Below are positions 17,884-35,531 of a stretch of 64,000 nucleotides of DNA, piece by piece (the first letter of the stretch is position 1; each line of letters opens with the position of its first letter). The stretch comes from Limibacillus halophilus (GTDB taxonomy: Bacteria > Pseudomonadota > Alphaproteobacteria > Kiloniellales > CECT-8803). Under the pieces are notes generated by a model. The model had not been told where the DNA came from. It did no database searches and worked only from the letters and a program-made list of their open reading frames with translations. The position numbers were made by a program, and so were the translations under genes. The DNA lies in assembly GCF_014191775.1 (NCBI RefSeq), contig NZ_JACHXA010000002.1, positions 124,001-188,000 on the forward strand. The letters run 5' to 3'.

Positions 17884-18696
17884 GGCATTGTCAGAGCAAA
17901 ATGTGTTGAAGCAGGTAAGGCGGTCATCTAGCGTCCGGCTATGACCAACCGCACCCCTTTCGTTATTTCAAGACGTCGCCCGAGATCATCCGCCTTGCGG
18001 TCATGATGTACATTCGCTTCCCACTCTCACTGCGGAACGTGGAGGATTTGCTCCACGAGCGCGGGAACGATATCAGCCATGAAATGGTGCGCTTTTGATG
18101 GCAGCGCTTCGGGCCAATGTTCGCCGCCTAGATCCGCAAGCGACGGATCCAATGCATGCGATCAGGCCCCTGGCGATGGCACCTGGACGAGGTCTTCGTG
18201 AAGATCAACGGCGAGACACACTACCTGTGGCGCGCCGTCGATCGCGAGGGCGAGGTCCTGGAATCCTTCGTGACGAAGAGACCGGTAAGAAGGCTGCTTT
18301 GAGATTCCTAAGGAAAGCAATGCATAAGCATGGGCGACCCGAGGTTATCGTGACCGATCGGCTGCGCTCGTACGGCGCTGCACTCAGGGACATTGGGACC
18401 GCAGCTCGACAAGAATGTGGCCGTTGGATTAACAATCGTGCTGAGAATTCACATCTACACTTCCGGCGACAGGAGCGAGCGAAGCTAAGGTTCCGCCGAA
18501 TGCGAAGTTTGCAGCTATTCGCCGCCGTCCACGCCTCCGCCTACAACCTCTTCAATACAGAACGCAGCCTTTCCTCTCGAACCATCTTCAAGCTGAACCG
18601 CGCCGCCGCTCTCTCCGAATGGCGCGGCTTTCTCACTGTCTGACGCTCGCCATTGCTAAGGCTTACTGAGACTAATTCAAACTCGCCTGGCAGCAC
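17884..18696 (+). mobile_element. IS6-family insertion sequence, degenerate copy (copy 1)
   Basis: The left end GGCATTGTCAGAGCAAA and the right end CTTACTGAGACTAATTC...CTGGCAGCA match those of the intact copies at 35.5, 53.8 and 61.7 kb. Length is about 813 bp against 815-818 for intact copies. The transposase inside is broken. The right end provides the C-terminal codons and stop of the neighbouring HD-domain gene on the other strand. Confidence 0.88.
17941..18643 (+). pseudogene. IS6-family transposase, inactivated
   Basis: Compared with the intact 234-codon copies, this copy has lost one base in the Ser codon near the start (ACCCCT for AGCCCC). A Trp codon has become TGA near 18096 (CTTTTGATGG for TTTCTGGTGG), and GAG has become TAG near 18130. 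A small deletion lies near 18280. Parts of the DDE core are still readable, including VTDRLRSYG and NRAENSHLHF. It is the most diverged copy, probably the oldest. Confidence 0.9.
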
Positions 18697-19364
18697 TCAC
18701 CCGTCAGTAACCGCCAGTTGCCCGCCAAGGCACGGCGCTCGGCCAAGTCCATTCTAAAGCTGCCGGGGTTATCCAGAACCGCCGTGATTTCTGTATAAAG
18801 CGGTAGCGCCAGCCGTAGTGCAGATTCAGGGCGAATCCTTGTCATGGTCCAATCGAGTTTCTCTCTGGCACCAGCGTTTGTGTAACTGCCTCGACGAATC
18901 CAATCTACTACCAACCAATCGAATGTGCTTAGAAACGCCAGGGAATCGGCTGCCTGGAGGATGTCCTCTTCAGTATTGCCACCAAACTCATGACGTAAAA
19001 CCAAGGCTCGCACCCGACGCTTGAAGACATCGTCAGGCTCAGGGTTTTGCGTTTGCAGCCACTCTTCGACGAACTCCGCTGAACGGATGGAATGCTTGAT
19101 CAGGTAGTCGGGATCATCAAACCCGTTCTGAGGAGTGCCGGTTGGTCCGCCGGGAAAGAAACGCTCCGAATCATGAACTAACGCGGCGAACTTCAGAGCA
19201 TCGGTCGCATTTGAGCCAGCCAGCTTTATCGCCCATTGCCTAGTCGCCAGCAAATGCTCTAGTTGATAAAATCCATCAAGCCATTCCATCGCCTTGAATT
19301 CCAAGGGCGTGAATGTCGGGTCGGCATATTTTCCAATCAAACTCGGGACGTGGTTGGAGAGCAT
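18672..19364 (-). CDS. HD-domain-like hydrolase, C-terminus replaced by an IS end
   Basis: A 230-residue protein with an HD-type metal-binding pattern: LEHLLATRQWA, FAALVHDSERFFPGG (HD dyad), LVLRHEFGGN and AADSLAFLSTFD. Such domains usually hydrolyse phosphoesters of nucleotides; the substrate is unknown. It begins 21 nt after the molybdenum subunit gene and is the last gene of the hydroxypyridine operon. The final residues (CCQASLN and stop) are encoded by the right end of IS copy 1, so the native C-terminus is lost or altered. Whether it works in pyridine catabolism is unknown. Confidence 0.7.
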   Translation of the reverse strand: MLSNHVPSLIGKYADPTFTPLEFKAMEWLDGFYQLEHLLATRQWAIKLAGSNATDALKFAALVHDSERFFPGGPTGTPQNGFDDPDYLIKHSIRSAEFVEEWLQTQNPEPDDVFKRRVRALVLRHEFGGNTEEDILQAADSLAFLSTFDWLVVDWIRRGSYTNAGAREKLDWTMTRIRPESALRLALPLYTEITAVLDNPGSFRMDLAERRALAGNWRLLTGECCQASLN

Positions 19365-19385: not shown

Positions 19386-21794
19386 CTAACGCGCTTGCTT
19401 GGCGGTGCAAATTGCGCGCCAAACCTTCTCAGGGGTAATCGGCAATTCCGAAATCTCAATCTGATAGTCCCTCAAGGCATCACAAACCGCGTTGGCTATT
19501 GCCGCTGCGGGGGGAATAGTCCCAACCTCACCGACGCCCCGGACACCGAAGGTTGTAACATCCGATGGCACCTCCGTATGAAGCAATTGGATTGGTGGAA
19601 CATCAACAGACATCGGGGCAAAATAATCCATCATCGAGCCGTTGATCAGCTGCCCGGTTTCAGCGTCATAGCGCAGTTCCTCATTCATCGCCGCGCCTAT
19701 CCCCTGCACAAGCGCGCCGCGAACCTGCCCCTCAACTAGCATTGGGTTAACTTCGATGCCGCAATCATGTGCCATCACGAAGCGCTCCACCTTGTATTCC
19801 CCGGTCTGCGGATCAACAGCGACAACTGCCGCAGCTGTGCCGAATGAAAAGGATGCCTCGCGCGGCTCGAAATGAGCCGTCGCCTCAAGCCCAGGCTCGA
19901 TACCATTCGGGATTCCCTGGCCAGTAATTGCTCGTTTAAAGACATCCGCCAAAGGCACTGAGAGAGTAGGATTATTCTTCACGCAAACCGCCATTTGCCG
20001 AATCGTCAAATTGGCAGGTGATTGCTCCAAAGCCATGCCGCCAATGAGAAGTATCTTTTGCCGCATCACTTCGGCCGCTTGCTTTATTGCCCCGGAGGCT
20101 GCGATCAAGGTCCGTGAGGCAAAAGCACCGGTATTGAGCGGCGAAGAAGCGGTATCCCCCGCGTGGACCCGCACGGCATCGTAATCGATCCCCAATACCT
20201 GCGCACAAATCTGAGCAAAGGCTGTTTCACTGCCTTGCCCAAAAGTCGACACACCACTGTAGAGATCGACCCCTCCCGACCGGTTTGCCCGCAAAGTAAC
20301 ACTTTCATGCGCGCCGAATTGTGACCCTCGATTCGCTAGAAAGCGCGCTGACGCATAGCCGGTTCGTTCAACAAAAGACGAAAGGCCAATCCCTTTTATT
20401 CGCCCGTCGCCGCGCACCACGCGCGGGGCCGCAAAGTGAGCTTCGTAGTCCACTGCCGCGGCCGCCATTTCAAGCGTTCGGGGGTAGTCTCCTATGTCAT
20501 AGACCGCGCCACTCGCAGTTCGCCATGGCAGGTCTCCCGGTTGCAGCATGTTTAATCGACGGAGAGCCAGAGGGCTTTTGCCAAGCTTGCCAGCCATTCG
20601 GTCGAGCAAAACCTCCAGAGCAAAATTCACTTCTGGTTGGCCGTATCCACGATAAGCGCCAATCGGCGTTTTGTTGCTTAGAACTACCATCCGTGTTGCG
20701 CGTGCATCTGATACTTTATAGGGGCCCGCGAAAGTTACCGACGAAAGTTGCGCTGATCCGAAAGGTGAGTTCCAGCCCCCGATATCGGTGACGTAATCGT
20801 CGATGATCGCCTTGATCCGGCCGTCTCGGTCAGCAGCAATTGCCATGTTGTGGATTGATTCTCGCCCGTGAGTGGAGGCACGAAAATACTCCATCCGATC
20901 TTCGATCCATTTGACGGGGCGACCAAGCGAAATAGCGTGCAGCGATGCTAAAATATCTTCTGGGAAAGCCCCAAGTTTCATGCCGTAGGCACCACCCACG
21001 TCGGATGCAACAACACGAATGCCGCTTTCTTCTAGGCGGAGGGATTCTGCAAGTTGCTTGCGCACCAAGTGCGGCACCTGTGTCGAGAGGCGAACGTCGA
21101 GCATACGTGCTCCAGCGCGCCAATAGACAGCAACGCCACGGGTTTCCAACGACAGGGGCGCAACACGGCTGTTATAAAACCGGCCACGCGCAACAACCTC
21201 AGCTGTGCCGCACTTCTGATCCGGCTCACCGATCTGATCTGTGTTTTCCGCCATCAGGTTGTTCGCGAGTAATTCCGGATGCAGTACAGGCGCGTCGTTG
21301 TCGAGGCACTTGGCCGTGTCGGTCACATGAGGAAGCGGCTCATAGTCGATCTCGAGCAAATCTAACGCATCCTCGGCAATTGCCCTCGTCTCGGCGGCAA
21401 TCGATACAACAGCCTGGCCTTCATGCAATGCGACATCGCGCGCCAGAGCAAAGTATGGCAGTGCCGGTGCGCCCGGCACGGGCCGTAACACGGTAAGCGG
21501 ATTACTACGCTCAGCGACTTCTTTGCCGGTAAAAATCTCCAGTACACCAGGCACCTGCCAGGCTGCCGCAGTATTTATCCGGAGAATTCTTGCATGCGGA
21601 AAGGGGCACCGGGCGATTGCCATTTCAATCTGATGGGCAAACTGCGCATCGTCTACGAACAGCCCACCTCCCTGAAGCAGCCTGTCGTCTTCCTTTCTCG
21701 GTAGCGATTGCCCGATGATCCTGTTCGTCGAAGCTTTGGAGGTCGAGCGTTGGTCCTTTGTATTGGGAGCTTGCGGCTTTGTTTCGGCGTTCAT
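19386..21794 (-). CDS. Molybdenum hydroxylase large subunit (xanthine dehydrogenase family), likely 3-hydroxypyridine dehydrogenase
   Basis: An 802-residue molybdopterin-binding subunit. It starts with the aldehyde-oxidase a/b hammerhead (GQSLPRKEDDRLLQGGGLFVDD) and contains GGAYGMKLGAFPEDI, GAYRGYGQPEVNFALE and the active-site Glu motif GVRGVGEVGTIPPAAAI. The enzyme would insert water-derived oxygen beside the ring nitrogen of a pyridine. Its start overlaps the stop of the 2Fe-2S subunit (ATGA). FAD and SRPBCC subunits are encoded upstream in the same operon. The substrate is inferred from gene content: 2,5-dihydroxypyridine enzymes are present and no 6-hydroxynicotinate monooxygenase is seen. 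Confidence 0.88.
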   Translation of the reverse strand: MNAETKPQAPNTKDQRSTSKASTNRIIGQSLPRKEDDRLLQGGGLFVDDAQFAHQIEMAIARCPFPHARILRINTAAAWQVPGVLEIFTGKEVAERSNPLTVLRPVPGAPALPYFALARDVALHEGQAVVSIAAETRAIAEDALDLLEIDYEPLPHVTDTAKCLDNDAPVLHPELLANNLMAENTDQIGEPDQKCGTAEVVARGRFYNSRVAPLSLETRGVAVYWRAGARMLDVRLSTQVPHLVRKQLAESLRLEESGIRVVASDVGGAYGMKLGAFPEDILASLHAISLGRPVKWIEDRMEYFRASTHGRESIHNMAIAADRDGRIKAIIDDYVTDIGGWNSPFGSAQLSSVTFAGPYKVSDARATRMVVLSNKTPIGAYRGYGQPEVNFALEVLLDRMAGKLGKSPLALRRLNMLQPGDLPWRTASGAVYDIGDYPRTLEMAAAAVDYEAHFAAPRVVRGDGRIKGIGLSSFVERTGYASARFLANRGSQFGAHESVTLRANRSGGVDLYSGVSTFGQGSETAFAQICAQVLGIDYDAVRVHAGDTASSPLNTGAFASRTLIAASGAIKQAAEVMRQKILLIGGMALEQSPANLTIRQMAVCVKNNPTLSVPLADVFKRAITGQGIPNGIEPGLEATAHFEPREASFSFGTAAAVVAVDPQTGEYKVERFVMAHDCGIEVNPMLVEGQVRGALVQGIGAAMNEELRYDAETGQLINGSMMDYFAPMSVDVPPIQLLHTEVPSDVTTFGVRGVGEVGTIPPAAAIANAVCDALRDYQIEISELPITPEKVWRAICTAKQAR

Positions 21795-22306
21795 GCCTCA
21801 GCTTCCTTTTGATTGGCGCCCGCATCCAAGGCAGCAGTAAGGTATTCCTCAATGGCGTTTACTATGCCCTCGTACCCAGTACAGCGGCACAGTACACCGG
21901 CGATTTCTTCTCTAATCTCCTCTTTGGAAAGAACGCGGCCGTGGCTCTCCAGCGATTTGGCCACGCACAGGAAAGCCGGCGTGCAAAACCCACATTGCAG
22001 CGCGTGGTGGCGCTTGAACGATTCTTGCAGCAAACTCAATCGGTTGCCTTCGGATAGCGCCTCAACAGTGCAAACGTTCCTGCCATCCAACTGCACTGCA
22101 AGCATCAGGCACGACTTTACGACCTGACCGTCGACAGTAATCGTACACATACCGCAAACACCTTGCTCGCATCCGATATGGGTGCCGGTAAGGCCAAGTT
22201 TTTGCCGCAGAAAATCCGCAGCATGCATTCGCACAGGGGCTGATTCGGCAATAAGTTCGCCATTTACAGTGAAGGATACTTCGGTTTGATTTGTTCTCGA
22301 GATCAT
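21791..22306 (-). CDS. Molybdenum hydroxylase 2Fe-2S subunit
   Basis: A 171-residue protein carrying two [2Fe-2S] clusters. The plant-ferredoxin-like cluster is in GCEQGVCGMCTITVDGQVVKSC and the second in LQCGFCTPAF and LCRCTGYEGI. It passes electrons from the molybdenum site to FAD. It starts 60 nt after nicX and overlaps the large-subunit start by 4 nt. Length and motif order are normal for CoxS/NdhS-type subunits. The C-terminal tail (DAGANQKEAEA) is short and charged. Confidence 0.94.
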   Translation of the reverse strand: MISRTNQTEVSFTVNGELIAESAPVRMHAADFLRQKLGLTGTHIGCEQGVCGMCTITVDGQVVKSCLMLAVQLDGRNVCTVEALSEGNRLSLLQESFKRHHALQCGFCTPAFLCVAKSLESHGRVLSKEEIREEIAGVLCRCTGYEGIVNAIEEYLTAALDAGANQKEAEA

Positions 22307-22366: not shown

Positions 22367-23395
22367 TTAGGCTGGCAGGTGCCGCATTTCCTCTACCGCA
22401 ATGTCGCCATCAATAACGATCGGTTCGTCGTCGAGGTAGAGAGAGCAATGCCGCATCGGAATATCCAGATGGCAGGCTGTATCGTTTGGCCCTCCAAGTT
22501 CGTTATTAGGGCCCGTAGAGAACATCACATTGCCGTAGAAGCTACGCAGTTCCATCCCCATGCCGCCGGGGAAATTTGTTAGCCCATGCCACTGCGCGCG
22601 ATGATCAAGTCCCCATCCGACATGGCTCATCCCATAGCCCCGAGGGTCCTTGAAACTTTCCATATAGGATTTGACAAGATCTGCATCGAGGCCGCCCCGG
22701 ATATCGGTTATGAGCCCTTTCTCAATCGTGTAAGTGATTGGATCGCGTGCATACGCGTTAAACGGCAACAGTACATCGCCCGGCGCCACGACGATCTGGC
22801 CGTCCACACCATCATCCGACGCGCCAGTGAAGACGAAAGCGGCAGGCCAGTGATCCCAGCGACCCGGTTCATCGGTGCAACCATATTCGCTGATCGTTGG
22901 GTAAACGCCTAACTGATAGGTCACGTCGGTGCCGTGCGGGCTAGTGATCCGCATCACCTTTGCCTTCGACAATATCTCTGCACCTATTTCAACCCGCTCG
23001 CGAAGCTCTTTGGTAGGCAGAAGACGGGCCAGCAACGATGCCGGCTCAACTGCCGTCAACACACGGGTTCCCGCCGCCTGGATTGCCATCTGCTCCTTTG
23101 AAAACAGGAGAAACATAAGGTCAATCAACATATCTGCCTGCTTGAGCGCTTCTACGGCTTCGGGATTACTGGAAAGACCGTTTACACCGACTTCCCAGTT
23201 GCCAGACCCAGCGACCGGCATCGGCAGGCGCATGTTATACATCTTCGCGCCAAGCCGTTGGCCCGCCGCCATAAACGCATCCGCATAGTCCAGGCGCTCG
23301 CTGCCCTGGGACAGCACGACTACCTTTTCGCCCTCATGAACTCCGCTCATGGTCAACTGATGAAGGCATATCTCAGTCAGTGACATCAGATCCAT
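22367..23395 (-). CDS. nicX: 2,5-dihydroxypyridine 5,6-dioxygenase (NicX-like, M29-peptidase fold)
   Basis: A 342-residue protein of the NicX family. NicX uses Fe(II) to open 2,5-dihydroxypyridine to N-formylmaleamate. Probable metal ligands lie in CTDEPGRWDHWP (Glu), GMSHVGWGLDHRAQW (His) and ACHLDIPMRH (His and Asp); the His-x-Asp pair matches the known NicX site as I recall it. The ATG at 23395 has GGGAG about 7 nt upstream; the open frame upstream overlaps nicD and is not family-like. Its neighbours encode the next two enzymes of the maleamate branch. Confidence 0.9.
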   Translation of the reverse strand: MDLMSLTEICLHQLTMSGVHEGEKVVVLSQGSERLDYADAFMAAGQRLGAKMYNMRLPMPVAGSGNWEVGVNGLSSNPEAVEALKQADMLIDLMFLLFSKEQMAIQAAGTRVLTAVEPASLLARLLPTKELRERVEIGAEILSKAKVMRITSPHGTDVTYQLGVYPTISEYGCTDEPGRWDHWPAAFVFTGASDDGVDGQIVVAPGDVLLPFNAYARDPITYTIEKGLITDIRGGLDADLVKSYMESFKDPRGYGMSHVGWGLDHRAQWHGLTNFPGGMGMELRSFYGNVMFSTGPNNELGGPNDTACHLDIPMRHCSLYLDDEPIVIDGDIAVEEMRHLPA

Positions 23396-23423: not shown

Positions 23424-24245
23424 TTACGACTTTGCGTCCGCCAAGATTGGTTCGAGTGTTTGAAAGAAGCCCGCCTCATTGTCCCAGGGGATCATGTGGC
23501 CGGCCTCTCGCACGCAATAGAGACGAATTGTTGGATTGGCTCGCGCCAAATCGGCAGCCCCCTCGCGGGTAACTACCGGACTGTTGCCGCCGTAAATCAA
23601 CACGGCAGGTTGTGTGATTCTTTCCCAGTACGGGAAAAAATTTTCCGTCTCAAAGCCCGCGTGGGATTCACGAACCGCCGTTTCATCACATTGCGGCAGC
23701 ACCTCGATACGAAGCTGCAGTTCGCGCTCCGGCCATTTCGGATAGAAACGGCGGACCTCATCGAGCGTAGTGCCAGCTTTCGCCTCTTTCAGTTGTGTCA
23801 TGAAGCTTTCGAGACTGGTCGGATACCCGCCTCGTCCGGGACCACAAACGGGGGGATCCACGAGAACGAGCAAACCGTGATCTTCCATTGCATAGGTCGT
23901 CGCATAGGCTGCTGCGATCCGCGCGCCCATCGAATGGCCTATAATCACCGGTTTGTGCAATCCGAGCGCTCTGATTAGCCCATGAACATCTGCAGCGTAA
24001 TCCGACAAGCGATAACCCCCTGGGGGTGCTATTTCGGTTTGCCCTCGACCGCGGATGTCAGGCACATATACCGTGAACCCGAGCGCCGCAATTCTGATGG
24101 CAAGGAAATCAGCTGTCGCCGCAGGGCTGGTTATACCCGGCAGCATGAAGACCGCGGGCGCTCCAGCATTACCATAGGTTAGCAAATGGTGCCTTAAGCC
24201 ATTGGCTTCGACATACTGCGACTTCCCGGCGATCTGAACTTTCAT
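23424..24245 (-). CDS. nicD: N-formylmaleamate deformylase (NicD-like alpha/beta hydrolase)
   Basis: A 273-residue alpha/beta hydrolase. The nucleophile is in IGHSMGARIAAAYA, the catalytic His in EAGHMIPWD, and an acid in LLVLVDPP; the oxyanion region is MLPGITSPA. NicD removes formate from N-formylmaleamate to give maleamate. The family alone would not fix the substrate. The position between nicX and the maleate isomerase gene, with a 4-nt overlap with the latter, makes the assignment good. Confidence 0.85.
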   Translation of the reverse strand: MKVQIAGKSQYVEANGLRHHLLTYGNAGAPAVFMLPGITSPAATADFLAIRIAALGFTVYVPDIRGRGQTEIAPPGGYRLSDYAADVHGLIRALGLHKPVIIGHSMGARIAAAYATTYAMEDHGLLVLVDPPVCGPGRGGYPTSLESFMTQLKEAKAGTTLDEVRRFYPKWPERELQLRIEVLPQCDETAVRESHAGFETENFFPYWERITQPAVLIYGGNSPVVTREGAADLARANPTIRLYCVREAGHMIPWDNEAGFFQTLEPILADAKS

Positions 24246-25021
24246 GCCGATACCTTTGCCTTGCTAATGACTCCGGTTGACTGGGTGCCAAGCGCTGCCC
24301 CTGCGTTGGGCACGATCGGGTCCAACCCCAAGGCCAATAGGATTTCACGGGTCGTACAGGTCGCGGCTGTAATAACCGGCAGGCCGATTTTGTCCTGGAC
24401 CATCTGTACGGCGGGCAAGGATGGCATCTGTACACAGGCGGAGAGGATCAAGCCATCCACGCCGGAAAGATCAAGCTTTGCCACGTGCTCGGGCAAATTC
24501 AGTGGATCAAGTCGACCAACCGCCAAATTGTTTGATATTGAGAGGCTTACACTATTGGTGACCGTTACGCCCGCCGCCTCAATGTAGGCGATTACCATCT
24601 TGGTGAGCTCCGGCATATAAGGGGCCACCAAAGCGACCTTCCGGAGCCCAAGCGCATCAAGCGTGCGCACCAACGCACCGGCGCTGGACACGATCGGGAC
24701 ACCCTTTCCCCGATCTCCGAGGACGACCTCGCCAAGTTTTGCCTCAATCCTCTTGTGAGCACCTGCTCCGCGCGACATCAAGGCAACAAGACAAGCGTAA
24801 GCAATCACATCCACGTCGGCGTCACCCAGTTCCGCCGCGCATCGATCGCCGTCATCGACCATGCGTGACAAGGATTGGACATCTACCGTGTGGAGCCGCG
24901 CGCGGCTGGAGTGGAAAGTAAAACCCGGAAAATCCCACGAAGCACTCTGGCGCAAGAGTGCTGGAATTTCCGTTTCCATTGTCGTGTTCGAACTCGGTAC
25001 TATCAGGCCAACTCGTTTCAT
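24242..25021 (-). CDS. nicE: Maleate isomerase (NicE-like, Asp/Glu racemase superfamily)
   Basis: A 259-residue protein that would convert maleate to fumarate, the entry point to the TCA cycle. It starts MKRVGLIVPSSNTTMETEIP, characteristic of maleate isomerases. The two catalytic cysteines are in AYACLVALMSRG (about 85) and LILSACVQMPSLPAV (about 195). The ATG at 25021 follows GGGAGG; a 50-codon upstream extension is rejected because it overlaps the SRPBCC gene. The stop overlaps the nicD start. Confidence 0.9.
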   Translation of the reverse strand: MKRVGLIVPSSNTTMETEIPALLRQSASWDFPGFTFHSSRARLHTVDVQSLSRMVDDGDRCAAELGDADVDVIAYACLVALMSRGAGAHKRIEAKLGEVVLGDRGKGVPIVSSAGALVRTLDALGLRKVALVAPYMPELTKMVIAYIEAAGVTVTNSVSLSISNNLAVGRLDPLNLPEHVAKLDLSGVDGLILSACVQMPSLPAVQMVQDKIGLPVITAATCTTREILLALGLDPIVPNAGAALGTQSTGVISKAKVSA

Positions 25022-25735: not shown

Positions 25736-26602
25736 TCACTTTACGGCTGTCTCATCGCGGAGATCGCGCATCGCACGCGCGACGTAAATTTCGGTCAAAT
25801 GCCTTCGGTAAGCTTCCGAAGCACGGATATCTGTCGCGGGATTGATGAATTCAGAGGCAACTCGAGCGGCTTCGGCGATCACGGTATCAGATAGGTCGGA
25901 CCCCTCGGCAGTGCTCATAGCTTCACGCGCGAGAACGGGTGTTTCATCAACGCCGCCAAGGCCGATACGCACGCCCTGCCATGCGCCGTTGGAACCGCGG
26001 TCGGCGACAACGGCAACGGAAACGATGGCAAAATCGTTATGCCGGCGATTCACCTCATAAAACGCGAAGTGCTCGGGGTGGCGCGGATAGCGGACTTTTA
26101 ACAGAACTTCATCAGGTTCTGCCGCCGTCGCATAGGAGCCTACGAAAAAGTCCTCCAGCGCCATAGTTCGCGTGCCGGTCACCGAATACAGCGTCACCTC
26201 GGCACCGAGAGTAAGCGCTGCCAGTGGCATCTCACCGGTCGGATCCGCCTGCATGAGGCTGCCGCCGAGCGTGCCGCGATTGCGCACCTGCCGGTCGCCA
26301 ACGAAATGGATCATTCGCACCAACAATGGCAACCGCTCCGCGACGAGCGAGTGAGTCTCGATCGTCCGATACCGCACCATCGCACCAAGGATCGTGTCGT
26401 CACCCCTTGGCTCTATCCCATCCAGTTCCGCCAACCGTTCAATGTCAATCAGCGCGGAAGGCCTCCAGAGGCGCAGGTTCATCATCGGAATGATGCTTTG
26501 GCCTCCAGCCAAGATTCGAGCATTACCTGCATAGTCATCTAACAAGCCGACGGTCTCATCGATGGAATCAGGACGATGATATATGAAGTCGGCAGCTTTC
26601 AT
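25736..26602 (-). CDS. Molybdenum hydroxylase FAD-binding subunit (CoxM type)
   Basis: A 288-residue protein of the xanthine dehydrogenase medium-subunit family. FAD pyrophosphate contacts are in ARILAGGQSIIPMMNLR and VGDRQVRNRGTLGGSLMQADPTGEM, both well conserved. It accepts electrons from the FeS subunit. The ATG at 26602 overlaps the stop of the dikinase-like gene (ATGA). It lies 10 nt before the SRPBCC gene, separated from the other two enzyme subunits by nicE, nicD and nicX. Confidence 0.93.
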   Translation of the reverse strand: MKAADFIYHRPDSIDETVGLLDDYAGNARILAGGQSIIPMMNLRLWRPSALIDIERLAELDGIEPRGDDTILGAMVRYRTIETHSLVAERLPLLVRMIHFVGDRQVRNRGTLGGSLMQADPTGEMPLAALTLGAEVTLYSVTGTRTMALEDFFVGSYATAAEPDEVLLKVRYPRHPEHFAFYEVNRRHNDFAIVSVAVVADRGSNGAWQGVRIGLGGVDETPVLAREAMSTAEGSDLSDTVIAEAARVASEFINPATDIRASEAYRRHLTEIYVARAMRDLRDETAVK

Positions 26603-27669
26603 GACCAGGCCTTCCCACCCGACATCCGCATGAGAACATGATTGATCGGCGAGGCAACTTTCATGGTCGGCTTCGCGGCTTTGTTGCTCCAGACAGTCTC
26701 CGGACGAACCTGTAAGACCGCGATCTGACCGTCCTGGTCGATCGCCCACTCGATGTCCTGCGGCGCCCCCCGATCCTTCTCGATTTGCTTTGCCAGCGTA
26801 GCAAGTCCAACGGACTCTGCATCACTTAGGCAGGGCACCGCCTGACGGGCTTGCTCAATTGGGAAAAGACCGACCACACCACTTTCCGAATCAAACCTGT
26901 ACTCTTCCGGTTGGATGGAAATAGACTTCTTTAACAACGTGAGTTGCACTTTATCTGCAATGAATTGCGAAGGCGTTATGTCGCCTTTGACCACGCCCTC
27001 TCCCAAACCCCAGCAGGCCTCAATCGCGACTTTGGAGCGATCGCCAGTAATTGGATCAAGTGTGAACATCACGCCGGCTGCCCGGGCTTGCACCATCTGT
27101 TGCACACCAACACAGATAGCAAAATCACCTTGGTCCATGATCGTTTTTCCATCGTGCTGGTATGACAAAACGGCGTCACTAAACATCCCGGCCCAGCACC
27201 GACGCATATGCCCAATCACAGATTCAATGCCTGATATCCAAAGATATGTTTCGTACTGGCCGGCGAAGCTAGCGCCCGCTAGATCTTCAGACTCACCACT
27301 GGATCGCACCGCAACAGGAACATCCTTGATCCCTGTCCGCTCGGATAACCGTGCATAAGATTCTTGGACCACCTTCTCCAATCTCTCCGGGAGTGGAGTC
27401 CTGATGATCTGCTCAATCAAACCTGCAGTTTCGGCGCTGATTTTCTCAGGCGGCAAACCTGCACAAACCTTTTGCACCTTCCGGGCCTCCGCTGTTAGTC
27501 CGGCAGCCTCCATGAAGTCGCGGTACGCATGCGTGGTGATTCCAAATCCTAGTGGCACCGCCAAGCCATCCGCTGTCGACTTAGCCAAGCTGGAGAACTT
27601 CCCGCCAAGAATCGGATTCTCTATTGACGCTGGGTCATCCAGCCACAGCACATAAGGACGCGCACTCAT
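26599..27669 (-). CDS. PEP-synthase/PPDK N-terminal ATP-grasp protein (stand-alone)
   Basis: A 356-residue protein containing only the nucleotide-binding part of PEP synthase. Motifs are NPILGGKFSSLAKS, VPVAVRSSGESEDLAGASFAGQYETYL, ACWGLGEGVVKGDITPSQF and the C-terminal IAVLQVRPETVW. It would phosphorylate the His of a partner protein with ATP. The partner is the gene just upstream, with which it overlaps by 4 nt. Its size and split arrangement resemble PpsB of phenylphosphate synthase. I recall that this pair is needed for 3-hydroxypyridine dehydrogenase activity; the chemistry is unresolved. Confidence 0.85.
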   Translation of the reverse strand: MSARPYVLWLDDPASIENPILGGKFSSLAKSTADGLAVPLGFGITTHAYRDFMEAAGLTAEARKVQKVCAGLPPEKISAETAGLIEQIIRTPLPERLEKVVQESYARLSERTGIKDVPVAVRSSGESEDLAGASFAGQYETYLWISGIESVIGHMRRCWAGMFSDAVLSYQHDGKTIMDQGDFAICVGVQQMVQARAAGVMFTLDPITGDRSKVAIEACWGLGEGVVKGDITPSQFIADKVQLTLLKKSISIQPEEYRFDSESGVVGLFPIEQARQAVPCLSDAESVGLATLAKQIEKDRGAPQDIEWAIDQDGQIAVLQVRPETVWSNKAAKPTMKVASPINHVLMRMSGGKAWS

Positions 27670-29501
27670 CCAGCCTGTTCCTCCAGAATTCGCACCAAGC
27701 CAATGTTGCCGTCGACCTCGATCATATCGCCGGTTTTGATTCGAGCGGTGGCAAAACCTGTGCCGACAACGGCTGGCAATCCGTATTCGCGTGACACGAT
27801 CGCGGTATGCGCCATCATGCCACCGACATCCGAGACAGCTGCGCGGATGCGCGGAAAGATTGGTGCCCAGCTTGGAGCCGTAACGCGGCAAACCAAAATT
27901 TCGCCGTCAACGATATTGTACAGGTGTGACGGATCGGTGATCACTCGCGCTTTGCCGGATACCTTACCGGCAGAGGCTGCAACGCCACGCAGCTCGGAAG
28001 CGCTGTTCGGATCTACGCCAAGCCATTCCTCAATGGTTTCCTGCGTGATACCCCACAGCATAATCGTGAGCGGCTCGGTAATTGTTTCGGGCGGCGTACC
28101 CAACGCTGGCGGCGGCGTCCATTTTGCCAGGTTGTCACGAATTTGGCGTCTCTCGGCGATTATTGGTTTCCAGTAAAACTCGCCCCTCGGCTGTGTTCCG
28201 ACAGCCCAACCGATCATTAAATCGTAAAGCGCATCGTAAATTTCATGGCGATGAAGGTAGAAAATGTCTTCCTTCGAATCGAAGAACTTGTGGGCGACAA
28301 AAACATTCCCCAACTCGCGCACCTTCGACCAGAAAATGGAATGATGCAGGTGCTCGACATAAAAATTGTGATCCTCTACGAACGGGAACACCTTGCGAGC
28401 CAGCTCAAGCAAGCTATCAAAAGCCTCGCGATCTTCATCTGTAGGTAGGTGCCCGCGATACTCTTCTGTGACCCGCGCTCGTTTCTCCAGTATCTGGTCC
28501 AGTGGGCGCCGCACATCTTCACCACTGCGGATTGCGTTGATATAGCCGCGCATTGCGGTGAAGGGCAGCCTGAGATCGGTCATCCAAACCGGATCGGCGT
28601 GACAATAGCCTGAACCCGTCGAGAACCAGAACCACGGATCTTTTGCCTCCTCCAGGGAAGCCAACCACTGCTTACCGGCGTTACTGTTCGCCAAATCGGC
28701 AATAACTTCGTCAGGTTGACGGTTCGGAAGGATGGTATCGCCTACTCCCAAGTCGACAGCGAGCTGCGCGAGTTTGCGTAGCTCGTCATCCGGCCTAAAT
28801 AACAGGATATCGATGCCAGAAACCATGTCGGTTATGGTCTGGTCGGCGATACCCGGAAATACGCTCTGGCAGAACTCCCGATAGGTTAGATAGGCACCAT
28901 AACCGAGGTTCAGCATCTCGAAATGATACGAGCCCATTTCGAGCATATTCTCGATTAAGCGACTGTAGTCGCGGAGCATTTCAAGCGACGAATAAGTACC
29001 TTTGTGGGAGGTAACGCTTTCCTCGGGTTCGTATTCCGGGAGTGGCTTGAACTCCATCTCTCGCAGGCGATCGATACAGTCCATCGCCTTGACCTTCCAA
29101 TTCTCGAAAATTTCGTCCCAGTTCTCGAAATAATGGCCGGCACGCTTGGTAAAATACTCTTGCCGTTCGGCGATCTTCGCTGGGTCAGTGACCGCGTTCG
29201 GGCTGACATAGAGATAACCGTTGATGATTCGGTGATCGATACCCAAAGCAGGAGGAAGTGCCCATACCCGGCTGGACATTTGACTGACCGCCACCCACCA
29301 ATTCTCGGTCATGATTGTATCAAATGGATACAACGGGTCGGGATTATGCATTCCATCGAAGAACCAGAACTTAGACTCCTCAAACTCCCGACGATCTTCG
29401 CTTATCAGGGCATAATACCGGTAGAGGCTCTCCCACCCCTCGGCCCCACTTGGCGTCTCGACCTCGAATGGGCTTTTGAAGGAATTCACTGGTTTAGGCA
29501 T
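27666..29501 (-). CDS. PEP-utilising phosphohistidine-domain protein (PpsA-like)
   Basis: A 611-residue protein. The long N-terminal part (about 1-500) has no catalytic motif I recognise; it is rich in Trp, Tyr and acidic residues (SKFWFFDGMHNPDPLYPFD). The C-terminal swivelling domain has the phosphohistidine motif GGMMAHTAIVSREYGLPAVVGTG. The usual PEP/pyruvate TIM barrel is not evident. With the ATP-grasp protein encoded next it could carry a phosphoryl group to an acceptor. Its length is close to PpsA of phenylphosphate synthase, which phosphorylates a phenolic hydroxyl. The start has GGGGAG upstream. Confidence 0.82.
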   Translation of the reverse strand: MPKPVNSFKSPFEVETPSGAEGWESLYRYYALISEDRREFEESKFWFFDGMHNPDPLYPFDTIMTENWWVAVSQMSSRVWALPPALGIDHRIINGYLYVSPNAVTDPAKIAERQEYFTKRAGHYFENWDEIFENWKVKAMDCIDRLREMEFKPLPEYEPEESVTSHKGTYSSLEMLRDYSRLIENMLEMGSYHFEMLNLGYGAYLTYREFCQSVFPGIADQTITDMVSGIDILLFRPDDELRKLAQLAVDLGVGDTILPNRQPDEVIADLANSNAGKQWLASLEEAKDPWFWFSTGSGYCHADPVWMTDLRLPFTAMRGYINAIRSGEDVRRPLDQILEKRARVTEEYRGHLPTDEDREAFDSLLELARKVFPFVEDHNFYVEHLHHSIFWSKVRELGNVFVAHKFFDSKEDIFYLHRHEIYDALYDLMIGWAVGTQPRGEFYWKPIIAERRQIRDNLAKWTPPPALGTPPETITEPLTIMLWGITQETIEEWLGVDPNSASELRGVAASAGKVSGKARVITDPSHLYNIVDGEILVCRVTAPSWAPIFPRIRAAVSDVGGMMAHTAIVSREYGLPAVVGTGFATARIKTGDMIEVDGNIGLVRILEEQAG

Positions 29502-29542: not shown

Positions 29543-30196
29543 TCATCGGGTGCTTGTTCTTTGGTTGCCGCACGACCGAAGGTAATTCATTGCCTCCGAT
29601 ACTTGCACCACATCAGCGTATTTTTGCTGTATATCGAATAGGTTGGCATCGTGTGGCGGCTTCGAGCGATCCGCAACGCAACCTTCGGGTACCAGTACGT
29701 TGAACCCGTATTGCACGGCATCGACCACGCTGGCGCGCACACATCCGCTCGTTGTCGCGCCGGTAACGATTACCGTGTCCACCCCCGCACCGTTTAGCAT
29801 TGCGGCGAGATTGGTTCCGTGGAAGGCCGATGCCCCGTGCTTGATGATTATCGGTTCGGTCGCGCGTGGCTCCAGCCGCTGGTCAATTTCTACCAATCGC
29901 GACCCAGCAACTAGAGACGCCATGCCAGTTGCCTTGCGAAGCCAGGGGAGCATTTCAAGCTCTCCAGGCGTGTAGGAAATCGTTGTGAAAACTATAGGGA
30001 ACCGCATCGCCCTTCCGATATTGATCAGCTCCTTCGTCGCCTCGATTTCAGCGCTCATATCCGCAGCTGTCGGGTAAATCGGATCGGTGAATCCGTATGA
30101 GAAATCGACGACGAGGATTGCAGGGAAGCAACCTCGTTGGCCAGCGACTCCAAAGCCAGCCGTTCGATAGATATCTTCTTGCCTCGCACTAGACAT
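29543..30196 (-). CDS. nicF: Maleamate amidohydrolase (NicF-like, isochorismatase family)
   Basis: A 217-residue cysteine hydrolase. The triad is Asp in AILVVDFSYGFTD, Lys in IIIKHGASAF and Cys in TGATTSGCVRASVVDA; the last block matches maleamate and N-carbamoylsarcosine amidases. It would release ammonia from maleamate to give maleate for the isomerase. It is the first gene of the catabolic operon, with the large palindromic operator centred about 83 bp upstream. The family alone allows other amides; context decides the call. Confidence 0.85.
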   Translation of the reverse strand: MSSARQEDIYRTAGFGVAGQRGCFPAILVVDFSYGFTDPIYPTAADMSAEIEATKELINIGRAMRFPIVFTTISYTPGELEMLPWLRKATGMASLVAGSRLVEIDQRLEPRATEPIIIKHGASAFHGTNLAAMLNGAGVDTVIVTGATTSGCVRASVVDAVQYGFNVLVPEGCVADRSKPPHDANLFDIQQKYADVVQVSEAMNYLRSCGNQRTSTR

Positions 30197-30525: not shown

Positions 30526-31230
30526 ATGATCAGGTACTTTGAGGATAGAGTTAATCCTATCACCGTAAGAACCAGTGAGGGTATTGCGAACCTCATCCGC
30601 CGAGAAATTCTCACGGGAAAGTTTAAGCCGGACCAGCCATTGATGGAGCGCAGTATAGCGCAAGAGCTAGGCGTCAGCCGGACCCCTGTGCGCGAAGCGC
30701 TATTCACATTGCAGGGTGAGGGACTGGTCGAACTGGTCCCGCGACGTTATGCCCGGGTCCGACGTATAACAAGGCAGGATATCGCCCAGATATATTCAAT
30801 GCGGCTGGTACTGGAGACTCATGCCGCCCGAAGCGCGGCTCTTTATGCCGACCGGGATGCCATTCTCAACATCGAGGTCGCATTGTTACGTCAGGAAAGC
30901 CTGGACACTTCCTGCAGCGCGTTGGAACAGGCCAACGCCGATCTGGCATTTCATGCGGCTGTCACAGCGGCGGCGGGAAGCCAGGTTCAATTGACGATCA
31001 TTAATCACGTGCTCGCTATGACCGCTACGCTTCGATCGCGCATTAAATACGAGGGTAAGCGAGCCAAAATGGCTGTCAAACAGCATCGCGAGGTTCTCAA
31101 GGCTATCAAAGCGAGCGATGCCGACAAAGCTGGCGAATTGATGAAAGCACATATCGAATGGTCCACCGCGAACGCCCGTGAAATGGGCCTTCTGACCGAC
31201 CCGGATTCAAAACCGACTACCTCCAGGTAA
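30526..31230 (+). CDS. GntR-family regulator with FCD ligand domain
   Basis: A 234-residue regulator. The winged helix (about 10-85) contains ILTGKFKPDQPLMERSIAQELGVSRTPVREALFTLQGEGLVELVPRR, in GntR consensus order. The FCD domain (about 95-225) has the metal-ligand pattern with LAFHAAVTAAAGS and KQHREVLKAIKASDADKA. It is divergent from the catabolic operon and upstream of the importer genes on the other strand. It most likely represses both through the two TGGTAT...ATACCA sites and senses 3-hydroxypyridine or a downstream acid. Confidence 0.92.
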   Translation: MIRYFEDRVNPITVRTSEGIANLIRREILTGKFKPDQPLMERSIAQELGVSRTPVREALFTLQGEGLVELVPRRYARVRRITRQDIAQIYSMRLVLETHAARSAALYADRDAILNIEVALLRQESLDTSCSALEQANADLAFHAAVTAAAGSQVQLTIINHVLAMTATLRSRIKYEGKRAKMAVKQHREVLKAIKASDADKAGELMKAHIEWSTANAREMGLLTDPDSKPTTSR

Positions 31231-31295: not shown

Positions 31296-32291
31296 TCAAG
31301 CAGATTTGCGACCGGTATAGTGCTCACGGATCTGATCGATTGCGATCGCCAATACGAGCACCGCGCCCATTATAAAGGTCTGTAGATAGCTGTTAACTCG
31401 CAGCAGGTTCATTCCGTTCGACAACAAAGTGATAAAGAAAGCGCCCAGTACGACATTGCGCACGAGGCCCTTGCCACCTGTCAGCGCTACCCCGCCGATG
31501 ATGCAGCCTGCTATTGCTTTGAGCACGAGATCTGCCCCACCCAGGTTGGCTTCGCCACTTTCCGTCCGTGCGGTCATCAGGACTGCGGCGAACCCAACGA
31601 TGAGGCCGGACACAACATAGGCGAGCAATGTATAGCGACGGGTTGGAATACCGGACAGCCTCGCCGCCTGCAGGTTGCTTCCGATGGAATAGAGATATCG
31701 GCCTGCGCGTGTCCAACTCAGCAGGACCCAAACCAACAGCATGATGACAATCGTATAGAGGATCGCCACAGGCACACCGAAAAGGTCCGCATAGGAGAAC
31801 AAATCGCCAAATGCAGTTGGCAGCCCCGCGATGCTGTAGCCGCCGGAAACGAAGAGCGCTAACCCGAGCGCCATTGATAGGCTACCCAGAGTCATGACGA
31901 AAGGTGTCACCTTGAAGTAGGCAACACCGACTCCGTTCACTAGACCAACCAATCCGCCAGTTCCAACGCCGACCACCAACCCTACGCTAACGGCAAGCCC
32001 TTCCGCCTCCGGATAGGCCGCAGTCATAGCCTTGATCGCCGTTGCGCAAACGACTGAGGCCAATGAAACCGCGGAGCCAACCGATAGATCGATACCCCCT
32101 GTCAGCAGAACTATGAGCTGCGCAAGACAGACCAGGATCAGGTAGCTCGACTGGCGCGATAGATTGAAAAGATTGTCGCCTGACACAAACCGCGGCTCCA
32201 TCACCCCGAAGAAGACGATGAAGAACAGCACAATAAACGGTATGACACCGATCACCTCAAAAATGCTGCTGACGTTTGCTCTACTGTGCAT
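31296..32291 (-). CDS. ABC transporter permease, sugar type (RbsC-like)
   Basis: A 331-residue inner-membrane permease of the carbohydrate-uptake-2 group, with about 8-10 hydrophobic segments. The signature region is LIVLLTGGIDLSVGSAVSLASVV, and GTGGLVGLVNGVGVAYFKVTPFVMTLGSLS follows. The ATG at 32291 is chosen because an upstream 39-codon extension is polar and overlaps the ATPase gene. It lies 28 nt after the ATPase. Despite its sugar-type family, its operator-sharing with the hydroxypyridine operon suggests import of a pyridine compound. Confidence 0.9.
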   Translation of the reverse strand: MHSRANVSSIFEVIGVIPFIVLFFIVFFGVMEPRFVSGDNLFNLSRQSSYLILVCLAQLIVLLTGGIDLSVGSAVSLASVVCATAIKAMTAAYPEAEGLAVSVGLVVGVGTGGLVGLVNGVGVAYFKVTPFVMTLGSLSMALGLALFVSGGYSIAGLPTAFGDLFSYADLFGVPVAILYTIVIMLLVWVLLSWTRAGRYLYSIGSNLQAARLSGIPTRRYTLLAYVVSGLIVGFAAVLMTARTESGEANLGGADLVLKAIAGCIIGGVALTGGKGLVRNVVLGAFFITLLSNGMNLLRVNSYLQTFIMGAVLVLAIAIDQIREHYTGRKSA

Positions 32292-32319
32292 ATCTGGCAC
32301 CCTGTTCCATCCCGTATGG

Positions 32320-33864
32320 TTAATTGCCGAAGAAGTTTTGCAACGCTTCGTCCTCAGTTTTTCGCGCACCGCTGAGTTCGCCGGCGAGATGCCCCTGCCG
32401 AACGACATAGACGCGGTTCGACATACTCAAGACTTCCGGTAGATCCGAACTGATCATCAGGATCGCCATGCCTTCTTTCACAAGCGCGGCAAGCAGCGCA
32501 TAAACCTCCGTCTTGGCGCTCACATCGATTCCGATTGTGGGCTCATCAAGGATCAGAAGCCGGAGCGGCGAAGCGATTGCACGACCAAGCATGACTTTCT
32601 GTTTGTTGCCACCGGAGTAGTCTGAAACAGCGCCTTCCACGCGCAACGGCCGGATGCCGATCCGCGTCCCCATATCCTGCGCAAATCTCTTTTCTTCACC
32701 CAGACGCAAAAAACCCCGCCGCGTAAATGCCTCCGTGTTCAAGGCGGAAAGCGAAAGGTTTTCCCGTGTTGACCGGCTCAACATCAAACCGTCTCGCATT
32801 CGGTCGCTTGGTACGAAGTTCATCCCGCTGGCAATCATTTCTCTCGGCTGCGGGGCTTTCACGTGTTTTCCAGCAAAGTGAATGGTTCCCGATGCGAGTG
32901 GCTCCAGGCCGAAACATGCCCGGCCGATCTCTGACTTGCCGCAACCCACGAGCCCCGCCAGCCCGACAATCTCCCCTGCGCGAACCATTAGCGAAATATT
33001 CGCTACATGCCCGTCGCGGGTAGCCAGTTGATCGATCGCCAGAACCGTATCACCAGGTGTAAAATCGAGATTCGGATAGAAGCTCCCGAAGCTCCGCCCA
33101 GTCATTGATTCCACAAGTTCAGTTTTGGTCGCAATACGAGCATCAAGTGTTTCGATGAACTGCCCATCTCGCATTACCGTCACGCGATCGCCAATTTTCT
33201 GGATCTCTTCAATCCGGTGTGTGATGTAGACGATCCCGACACCCTCACCTCTAAGACGATTGATCAGGGCAAAAAGTATATCTGTCTCTGTTTTGGTTAA
33301 TGATGCCGTGGGCTCGTCGAGTATCAATACGCGCGGCTTGGTCATTGTTGCTTTAGCGATCTCCACCATCTGGCACTCTGCGCGCGACAAGTCCGAAATA
33401 ATCGCCTTGGTGTCGAGAGCGAAGCCCAGGCTCTCGATAATTTCTCGCGCCTGACGCCGCATCAGAGATTTCTTGAGTGTTCCGTATCGTGTCAGTTCCG
33501 AGCCGAGAAAAAGATTGTCTTCGACAGTTAAATCCGGCGCGAGGCTGAACTCCTGAAAGACTGATGCAATTCCCTTATCGTGAGCATCCCTTACTGAGTG
33601 CATCGTCACCGGCAATCCATCGAGCAGAATTTCTCCTCTAGTCGGTTGGTTTGCCCCACAAAGGATATTCACAAGAGTGGTTTTCCCAGCCCCATTCTCT
33701 CCAAATAAAACATGAACTTCGCCAGCACGTAGACTGAAGTTCATCGAGTCTAGAGCCATGAACCCTGAGTAAGATTTTGAAAGATTCCGGGCTTCCAGCA
33801 AAGGGGGGCTCGAACCGTTCGCATCGGCGAACGCGTCCGGTTCAGTTTTTTGTTTGCTCAACAT
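32320..33864 (-). CDS. ABC transporter ATP-binding protein, two-domain sugar type (RbsA-like)
   Basis: A 514-residue protein with two tandem ABC domains. The first has Walker A GENGAGKTTLVNIL, signature LSRAECQMVEIAKA and Walker B VLILDEPTASLT. The second has a variant Walker A GLVGCGKSEIGRA, signature YSGGNKQKVMLGRA and LLILDEPTIGID. It energises the permease encoded downstream. Start ATG at 33864; the gene follows the binding-protein gene after 114 bp that contain a hairpin. Confidence 0.95.
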   Translation of the reverse strand: MLSKQKTEPDAFADANGSSPPLLEARNLSKSYSGFMALDSMNFSLRAGEVHVLFGENGAGKTTLVNILCGANQPTRGEILLDGLPVTMHSVRDAHDKGIASVFQEFSLAPDLTVEDNLFLGSELTRYGTLKKSLMRRQAREIIESLGFALDTKAIISDLSRAECQMVEIAKATMTKPRVLILDEPTASLTKTETDILFALINRLRGEGVGIVYITHRIEEIQKIGDRVTVMRDGQFIETLDARIATKTELVESMTGRSFGSFYPNLDFTPGDTVLAIDQLATRDGHVANISLMVRAGEIVGLAGLVGCGKSEIGRACFGLEPLASGTIHFAGKHVKAPQPREMIASGMNFVPSDRMRDGLMLSRSTRENLSLSALNTEAFTRRGFLRLGEEKRFAQDMGTRIGIRPLRVEGAVSDYSGGNKQKVMLGRAIASPLRLLILDEPTIGIDVSAKTEVYALLAALVKEGMAILMISSDLPEVLSMSNRVYVVRQGHLAGELSGARKTEDEALQNFFGN

Positions 33865-33936
33865 GAAGCGCCCGCCGCCTTGCCATGATTGTGAGGTGCA
33901 CTGGTTCGATCTGTCGCATCTGGCCCAAAGGAACTG

Positions 33937-33963
33937 GGGGCGTCGCCCAATTTGCCACGCCCC
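33937..33963 (-). terminator. Intercistronic hairpin after the binding-protein gene
   Basis: GGGGCGT (33937-33943) pairs with ACGCCCC (33957-33963) around a 13-nt loop, between the binding-protein stop and the ATPase start. There is no T-run. It may be a partial terminator or 3' stabiliser that keeps binding-protein mRNA more abundant than transporter mRNA. Confidence 0.5.
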
Positions 33964-33978
33964 CTATTCCTCCGACAA

Positions 33979-35052
33979 TCAGTCGACGCGGAAGTATGGA
34001 TCCCAGCCAACTGGTGCCAGTGAAAGCGAGCGGTCGTAGGTATCCACGTTACTCGCATCGATCATGGCAAAGCCGGTGTCGACGTCGGCATCAACTTCCT
34101 TGCCCTCAAGGATGCGAACCAGCTGATCAATCGCAATCCGTGCCTGCGCGGCTGTATAGTCGGTGACCACGCCTAGCACTGTCCCCTCACGCAATGCTGC
34201 CTCGGTTTCCGGCGTCATATAGGATGCTATGAGTTGGATGTCTTGACGCCCTTTCTCCTTCAGCACCTGAACACCTCCCTCAATCGCTGGCGCAATGCCG
34301 CCGATATACTTGATGTCCGGGTAGGTCAGCAGCGCGTCTTCTATCAGCGGGATCTGGCTGGCTTTACCTGGCTCACCCCAGATCACCTTGACGACCTCTA
34401 TCGCATTGTTGCCCTCGACGGTCTTAACGAAACCTTCGGCGGAATCAACGGACCAATTCGGCCCCTCCGGACCTGCCATCCAAAGCACTTTCACAGGTTC
34501 CGAGCCCACTGGATGGAGTTTGTTCAGGTATTCGCCGGCAATCCTGCCTGAATCGAACCAATTGCCAAGTGCGCGTGCGGCCACGTCATCGGAATCAACC
34601 TCACCACCGGTGATTGCAAGCGGCACACCCTTCTTGGCGCCTACTGAAATGGTGCGGTTTAAGCCAGTCGCGGATATCGCGACAATCATTATCGCATCCG
34701 CTCCTCGCGTGATGCAGTCCTCCATCTGAGATATCTGCGTCGGAAGTTCCGTATATCCACCGGCGGCATAGACCGACATGGATAGCCCCTTATCCTCGGC
34801 TTCCGTCACCGAACCATACGTCATCGCGATGTAATAAGGGTCCTTAGTGTGTGGAAAGAGAACGCAGATGTCCCACTTCTTCGTTACCTCGGAAGCAGGA
34901 AGCGGCTTGTACTCTTTGTTTATCCATTCTGCGCCCGGATCAAATGCTGGATTGCGAGCCCGGATCTGCATCGACCAATCGTCCCCCGCATATGCTGGCA
35001 AGCCGATGGAAAGCAACGCTGTCACGGCTAAGGCTCTTTGAAACATCCTCAA
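33979..35052 (-). CDS. Periplasmic substrate-binding protein (TorT/sugar-binding-like)
   Basis: A 357-residue exported protein with a signal peptide (FQRALAVTALLSIGLPAYAG). The mature part has the periplasmic-binding-protein type 1 fold: WDICVLFPHTKDPYYIAMTYGSVTEA, CITRGADAIMIVAIS and KYIGGIAPAIEGGVQVLKEKG. The overall pattern resembles TorT-type ligand binders. Two starts are possible: TTG at 35052, 6 nt after GGGAGG, or ATG at 35046. A GntR-type operator lies about 50 bp upstream. It delivers ligand to the permease and ATPase encoded downstream. Confidence 0.88.
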   Translation of the reverse strand: MRMFQRALAVTALLSIGLPAYAGDDWSMQIRARNPAFDPGAEWINKEYKPLPASEVTKKWDICVLFPHTKDPYYIAMTYGSVTEAEDKGLSMSVYAAGGYTELPTQISQMEDCITRGADAIMIVAISATGLNRTISVGAKKGVPLAITGGEVDSDDVAARALGNWFDSGRIAGEYLNKLHPVGSEPVKVLWMAGPEGPNWSVDSAEGFVKTVEGNNAIEVVKVIWGEPGKASQIPLIEDALLTYPDIKYIGGIAPAIEGGVQVLKEKGRQDIQLIASYMTPETEAALREGTVLGVVTDYTAAQARIAIDQLVRILEGKEVDADVDTGFAMIDASNVDTYDRSLSLAPVGWDPYFRVD

Positions 35053-35505: not shown

Positions 35506-35531
35506 GGTATTGTCAGAAGAAACTGCTCTGA
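35232..35531 (+). pseudogene. IS6-family transposase, N-terminal fragment
   Basis: Codons 1-94 match the intact copies (MTKRSPFRYFKTSPEI to WHLDEVFVKING). The frame then reads six unrelated codons into an IS end. Only the first catalytic Asp (LDEVF) is left, so the product is inactive. Confidence 0.9.

Follow-up and report, generated by a model that had tools for sequence, protein, structure and literature searches.

A predicted two-component aryl dikinase encoded with a molybdenum hydroxylase and an HD-domain hydrolase in a putative 3-hydroxypyridine operon of Limibacillus halophilus

Results and discussion

A 64,000-nt stretch of the Limibacillus halophilus genome (hereafter the window) contains an operon of 11 genes (30196 to 18672; Table 1), in the order nicF-like, kinA, kinB, coxM, coxG, nicE-like, nicD-like, nicX-like, coxS, coxL and HD, in which a split kinase (KinA and KinB, our labels) is encoded together with a molybdenum (Mo) hydroxylase and an HD-domain hydrolase. 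We propose, with a probability of roughly two in three, that 3-hydroxypyridine is phosphorylated by KinA/KinB, hydroxylated by the Mo enzyme and dephosphorylated by the HD protein. A first-pass annotation of this DNA had suggested that the kinase pair acts on a hydroxypyridine in the manner of phenylphosphate synthase, activating the ring for the Mo enzyme. This view as a whole is supported by our analysis, from which we infer the substrate, the order of the steps and that the Mo enzyme prefers the ester; the HD-domain gene located after coxL had been missed.

KinA and KinB belong to the aryl dikinase family

The open reading frames (ORFs) of kinA and kinB are both intact (ATG to TGA, minus strand) and encode proteins of 611 and 356 aa. 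The two frames share 4 bp, and a further overlap of 4 bp joins kinB to the gene for the flavin adenine dinucleotide (FAD) subunit of the Mo hydroxylase (ATG at 26602). The lengths and the overlap of the two kinase genes are those first described, and the protein sizes, already likened to PpsB/PpsA, also fit HpeH/HpeI (71.1/40.6 kDa). The sole Pfam domain of KinA is PEP-utilizers (PF00391, residues 532-601, E 9e-22), and KinB consists of a complete ATP-grasp domain (PPDK_N, PF01326, 288 bits, residues 20-338) with conserved VAVRSS, DIEWA and VRPET motifs. The best match of KinB in the PDB is 9goj (E 1.9e-67 over 338 residues). Because this entry differs very little from the KinB-type partner encoded at the probable hpe locus of Rhodococcus sp. 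JS3073, we take it to be the HpeI protein of PMC12167813. The catalytic histidine of KinA, His565, lies in the motif SDVGGMMAHTA (fitting T/SxxGGxxxH) and is invariant in 42/42 sequences. It is preceded by Ala, at a place occupied by Ser or Cys in most relatives; in HpeH, the C580A change leads to higher activity (PMC12167813). KinA matches the family model NF006153 over its full length (821 bits) and shares 37-87% identity with 41 homologues, also over the full length, so that its assignment to this family is not due to chance.

We compared an AlphaFold2 model of KinA, built from 42 sequences (mean predicted local distance difference test score, pLDDT, of 90.5), with known structures using Foldseek. 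The model aligns end to end with rifampin phosphotransferase (RPH; 5fbt/5fbu, with a TM score of 0.63 by query and E 2e-18 for 5fbu), whereas the matches to phosphoenolpyruvate (PEP) synthase, pyruvate-phosphate dikinase (PPDK) and pyruvate kinase are mainly confined to the swivel domain of about 110-120 residues. A C-terminal PEP-binding TIM-barrel domain was found neither by Pfam nor by structure comparison, and the contrast between a whole-length RPH match and PEP synthase or PPDK matches covering mostly the swivel indicates that this barrel, which the first-pass annotation had already described as not evident in KinA, is truly absent. The presence of PPDK_N and PEP-utilizers domains could recall a split PEP synthase or PPDK, as annotation keywords would have it, but this reading is for practical purposes ruled out by the missing barrel and the RPH-like fold of the full-length protein, and the same genome already has, on contig C11, a gene of its own for a single-chain dikinase (898-codon frame). 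The first 500 residues of KinA are indeed rich in aromatic residues, as had been remarked (13.6% F/W/Y).

Judging from domains, predicted fold and motifs, KinA and KinB are thus members of the two-component aryl dikinase family that includes PpsAB, CreHI and HpeHI. KinA has the domain arrangement that Dexter et al. 2025 (PMC12167813) reported for HpeH. In kinases of this family, activity depends on both components and is abolished by mutation of the His, and AMP is the chief product (PMC12167813).

Kinases linked to Mo hydroxylases form a separate clade

Scanning of species genomes yielded 80 kinase loci, whose types were assigned from neighbouring genes found with tblastn. In a maximum-likelihood tree of 49 KinA sequences, the kinases adjoining a CoxLMSG-type Mo hydroxylase group in a single clade (support 100/99), which contains the proteins from the window, Actibacterium naphthalenivorans, Pusillimonas caeni, Pseudonocardia acidicola, Pseudonocardia kunmingensis and a Solirubrobacterales metagenome-assembled genome (MAG; two copies), whereas those of Ppc/UbiD loci, Cre-type P450 loci and Hpe-type biotin-carboxylase loci all branch outside. 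Two features of these sequences are candidate specificity changes: in the hpd-like core, G190 and S191 stand before H193 where nearly all other clades have an almost invariant W-Q, and position 292 is W throughout the Mo-linked clade and mostly N or Y elsewhere. In the MAG, kinB is immediately preceded by an additional KinA gene (L029:13070-14761), besides the one at 9956-11803.

KinA from the window shares 48% identity with the likely HpeH of Rhodococcus sp. JS3073 and about 46% with the PpsA-like KinA of Azoarcus KH32C, which adjoins ppc genes. The analogy with phenylphosphate synthase therefore holds for sequence, domain order and fold. It does not extend to descent from PpsAB, which is ruled out by the separate 100/99 clade and by the absence from the window operon of genes for PpsC (CBS) and phenylphosphate carboxylase (Ppc), both present in another locus (L022).

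Some loci resembling the Mo-linked ones were set aside. In Thermomicrobium roseum L021, the kinase is 47% identical to that of the window and xanthine-dehydrogenase genes lie 3 kb off, but this locus was discounted because its kinase groups with the Hpe clade, beside biotin-carboxylase loci. Loci L030 and L054 have Mo-enzyme genes near the kinase, yet they also have UbiD-type genes and their genomes are devoid of the HD gene; they were not counted. In L030, from a Chloroflexi MAG (L030:3663-13461), the kinase pair is located between a UbiD-type carboxylase gene and CoxS/M/G/L-like genes, without HD, and this locus could possibly combine phosphorylation-linked carboxylation with hydroxylation.

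An HD-domain gene accompanies the Mo-linked kinases

The last gene of the operon starts 21 bp after coxL and encodes a protein of 230 aa that fits the H...HD...H...H...D ligand pattern on an all-helical HD fold. Its predicted metal ligands (H37, H64-D65, H91, H125 and D140) are invariant in all six relatives aligned, and the top fold matches of its model (pLDDT 86.8) are HD phosphohydrolases (YpgQ and relatives, prob 1.00, E 0.005-0.01). Relatives of this gene are found beside Mo-enzyme genes in 7/7 readable Mo-linked loci, window included, among them L027, L028, L029, L031 and the locus in the genome of A. naphthalenivorans, where the relative adjoins coxL; none was present in the 81 other kinase loci examined. 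At the level of genomes, they occur in 5/5 other genomes with a kinase of the Mo-linked clade and in 0/5 whole genomes that carry different kinases from this family. A Fisher test on the loci (6/6 Mo-linked versus 0/81 other loci, P 2e-9) is descriptive only, since the loci are related to one another and have flanks of unequal length.

In a phylum sample of 398 genomes, only two weak, partial relatives of the HD protein were detected (L115 and L116, 30-32% identity over about 110 residues), in two genomes of 1.7-1.9 Mb from one family.

The HD protein probably removes the phosphate from the phosphorylated ring, and its gene provides the best genomic support for a phosphate ester that is made and then removed.

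A possible route through phosphate esters

All four enzymes leading from 2,5-dihydroxypyridine to fumarate are encoded in the operon, as indicated by matches to the sequences of solved structures. Because this route is complete, 3-hydroxypyridine is the likely substrate of the kinase; from established pathway knowledge, the Mo step would then be the conversion of 3-hydroxypyridine into 2,5-dihydroxypyridine. The closest solved relative of the CoxL-type subunit is quinoline 2-oxidoreductase (1t3q). The CoxG protein, with its hydrophobic C-terminus, probably serves the Mo hydroxylase as an anchor to the membrane or as a contact with quinone; membrane anchoring has been proposed for the 3-hydroxypyridine dehydrogenase HpdA, according to the account given in PMC11962113.

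In the mechanism that we propose, KinB would hold ATP, and His565 on the swivel domain of KinA would take the beta-phosphate and transfer it to 3-hydroxypyridine, whose hydroxyl would be phosphorylated in the N-terminal domain of KinA, yielding 3-pyridyl phosphate, AMP and inorganic phosphate. The four-component Mo hydroxylase (CoxL/S/M and CoxG) would then add a hydroxyl at C6, the ring carbon beside the nitrogen and para to the ester, after which the HD hydrolase would strip the phosphate to give 2,5-dihydroxypyridine, to be converted into fumarate by the NicX, NicD, NicF and NicE homologues. A free 3-hydroxyl sits para to the carbon under attack and, being electron-donating, is expected to slow nucleophilic hydroxylation. 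Masking this oxygen with phosphate could ease the reaction by rendering the ring more susceptible to the Mo-bound hydroxide; it would also trap the substrate in the cell.

Trapping might be the only function of the kinase, with the HD protein freeing 3-hydroxypyridine for a Mo enzyme that uses the unmodified compound. A scavenging or trapping role has been suggested for HpeHI (PMC12167813), and Mo hydroxylases of other pyridines work without phosphate. We nevertheless find this unlikely: the translational coupling of the kinase genes to the FAD subunit gene and the recurrence of the kinase-Mo pairing with different downstream genes suggest that the Mo step needs the ester, and in the Hpe system the next enzyme, the carboxylase HpeCBA, works only on the phosphorylated substrate (PMC9618137). 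The same tight coupling could mean that the target of the kinase is not the ring but the Mo enzyme system (a protein subunit, a CoxG-bound quinone or the cofactor), which it would activate or help to mature. An activator of this sort would also explain why HpdA reportedly needs kinase-like proteins for its activity. This appears more doubtful still, as small phenols are the substrates of every close relative characterised so far (PMC12167813), KinA retains a complete small-molecule-binding domain and maturation of Mo hydroxylases in other systems involves no such kinase. Finally, gene content alone cannot separate the preferred order from one in which the Mo step comes first and the kinase then phosphorylates its product 2,5-dihydroxypyridine or some other hydroxypyridine intermediate, for instance as protection or to draw the reaction forward, with HD reversing the phosphorylation before ring cleavage; we hold this to be very improbable, the ring-cleaving enzyme being an ordinary NicX relative that uses free 2,5-dihydroxypyridine, and nicotinate degraders with NicX using no kinase.

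Several points weigh against phosphorylation of 3-hydroxypyridine ahead of the Mo step. For the oxidation of pyridines, many Mo hydroxylases require no kinase, and co-location of genes leaves the order of the steps unfixed. The HD protein is divergent, scoring below the Pfam cut-offs (weak PF01966/DUF4202 matches); we know of no characterised member of its group, and the same metal-ligand pattern occurs in HD-fold oxygenases such as PhnZ. Compared with ten other Mo enzymes, CoxL has five basic residues particular to the clade (R104, K246, R305, R/K477 and R505), which are only a lead towards a phosphate site. Our analysis shows the genes, domains, fold, motifs, clade and gene linkage, from which the substrate, the product, the order of the steps and the role of HD are deduced.

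Recurrence of the kinase, Mo hydroxylase and HD set

A second complete operon, in which all 11 genes are kept, including the HD relative, lies in P. kunmingensis (L118). A divergent further copy of the module in the same genome (L031:3802-14919) has a rearranged gene order and only a NicX-like protein of 34% identity, and may act on a different hydroxypyridine.

In a plasmid collection, the sole match to the HD protein came from T. roseum. In this locus (L106:6119-16287), kinB, HD and a coxM-like gene are contiguous, with kinA, coxL and coxS nearby; its KinA shares 28% identity with that of the window and is about equally far from every clade. The other genes of the locus encode an FAA hydrolase, a cyclase, ABC transporters and an antibiotic-biosynthesis-monooxygenase-like protein, and these genes indicate that the T. 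roseum module serves a different compound. That the set stays together at such a distance is our best argument that its three parts act together. These data raise the idea, which we advance tentatively and at somewhat less than even odds, of a general and previously undescribed module of kinase, Mo hydroxylase and HD phosphatase that hydroxylates hydroxy-heteroaromatic rings via transient phosphate esters, feeding varied downstream pathways in Pseudomonadota, Actinomycetota and Thermomicrobiota.

The kind of kinase and the type of cluster are already known. In the literature that we searched, which excluded the 2020 HpdA paper, no article proposing pyridyl phosphate was found; with respect to that literature, the novel elements appear to be the separate kinase clade, the constant HD partner, the account of the kinase by way of an ester and the repeated occurrence of the module. 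If confirmed, our proposal would account for kinase-like genes in a known hydroxypyridine-degradation gene cluster and for the reported dependence of 3-hydroxypyridine dehydrogenase on kinase-like proteins, add a fourth substrate class (hydroxy-N-heterocycles) for aryl dikinases, provide a case of a Mo hydroxylase acting on a phosphorylated ring and assign a role to a set of HD/DUF4202-like proteins. It would also touch on the reason for which aromatics are phosphorylated in bacteria ahead of their breakdown, which the HpeHI authors call unresolved (PMC12167813).

Genomic surroundings of the operon

The ABC importer encoded beyond the divergent regulator gene (Table 1) possibly takes up the substrate. 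Many ORFs and fragments of IS6-like transposases are present in the window at 18095-18643, 35232-36310, 51634-54566 and 61720-62424; because they bracket the region of 18.6-35.1 kb, the operon and the ABC transporter genes together suggest a mobile catabolic segment. Further along, a catabolic-looking block on the minus strand (36593-42570) encodes carboxymuconolactone decarboxylase-like, luciferase-like flavin monooxygenase and flavin reductase-like proteins, alpha/beta hydrolases and an aldehyde dehydrogenase, possibly forming another ring-degradation route; it is adjoined by a gene for a PucR-like regulator with a C-terminal helix-turn-helix (42743-44554).

Table 1. Predicted features of the operon and adjoining genes (window coordinates)
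Feature	Position	Strand	Basis
GntR-family regulator, divergent from operon	30526..31230	+	Sequence; GntR-like gene in same place in L026
Sugar-type ABC importer: permease, ATPase, periplasmic binding protein	31296..35052	-	Sequence; similar genes adjoin kinase in L027
Maleamate amidohydrolase (NicF type), first operon gene	29543..30196	-	PDB 4l07, 261 bits; 3uao family
KinA, substrate-binding and swivel (phosphohistidine) subunit of two-component aryl dikinase	27666..29501	-	PF00391; NF006153; RPH fold match; own clade
KinB, ATP-grasp subunit	26599..27669	-	PF01326; 9goj best PDB match; VAVRSS/DIEWA/VRPET motifs
FAD subunit of Mo hydroxylase (CoxM type)	25736..26602	-	PF00941, PF03450
SRPBCC/CoxG protein, hydrophobic C-terminal segment	25096..25725	-	PF06240; C-terminal sequence
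Maleate cis-trans isomerase (NicE type)	24242..25021	-	PDB 4fq7 maleate isomerase, 220 bits
N-formylmaleamate deformylase (NicD type)	23424..24245	-	PDB 4l0c deformylase, 172 bits
2,5-dihydroxypyridine 5,6-dioxygenase (NicX type)	22367..23395	-	PDB 7cn3, E 4e-95; ATG at 23395
[2Fe-2S] subunit of Mo hydroxylase (CoxS type)	21791..22306	-	PF01799, PF00111
Mo-cofactor subunit (CoxL type)	19386..21794	-	PF02738/PF20256; 1t3q, 474 bits
HD-domain metal hydrolase	18672..19364	-	Invariant ligands; HD-phosphohydrolase fold; linkage to Mo-linked kinases

Comparison with known systems

The closest known counterpart of the window operon in gene content is the 3hpd cluster of Ensifer adhaerens HP1, encoding HpdA (Wang et al. 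2020, AEM 86:e01313-20, cited in PMC11962113). This cluster encodes a four-component Mo dehydrogenase, with the L, S and M subunits and a separate SRPBCC protein, and 2,5-dihydroxypyridine is the product; the likeness is one of gene content. The window operon has the same type of content, with CoxL/S/M, an SRPBCC protein and the enzymes from 2,5-dihydroxypyridine to fumarate. A PEP-utilizing protein and a PPDK are reported to be needed for HpdA activity; to our knowledge, the 2020 work proposed neither pyridyl phosphate nor an HD phosphatase step.

Among the dikinases, the hydroxyphenylethanone dikinase HpeHI of Rhodococcus rhodochrous GD02 (PMC12167813, PMC9618137) is likewise two-component, with the same domain split, and is followed by a phosphatase. 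It differs in its clade, in the next step, which is a biotin-dependent carboxylation, and in the phosphatase HpeD, which is of the HAD/NagD type and has a preference for its carboxylated product. PpsABC of Thauera/Aromatoleum/Azoarcus shares the subunit split, the catalytic His and about 46% identity, and differs by its clade and by the PpsC (CBS) protein and Ppc carboxylase that the aerobic-type pathway of the window does without. Rifampin phosphotransferase has the same three-domain fold and swivel-His mechanism, but it is a single chain that acts on an antibiotic and is only 16-18% identical over the KinA part.

The 4-cresol catabolism of Corynebacterium glutamicum (CreHI/CreJEF/CreD) is a parallel in logic, the order of phosphorylation, oxidation and dephosphorylation being established for CreHI, CreJ and CreD. 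HD-domain genes occupy the creD position in Cre loci, although their products could not be aligned as orthologues of the window HD protein (tblastn). CreD has been used as part of the CreHI/CreJ system (PMC9549646). The Cre kinases belong to another clade, and their partner is a P450 that oxidises a methyl group, whereas the partner in the window is a Mo enzyme predicted to act on a ring carbon.

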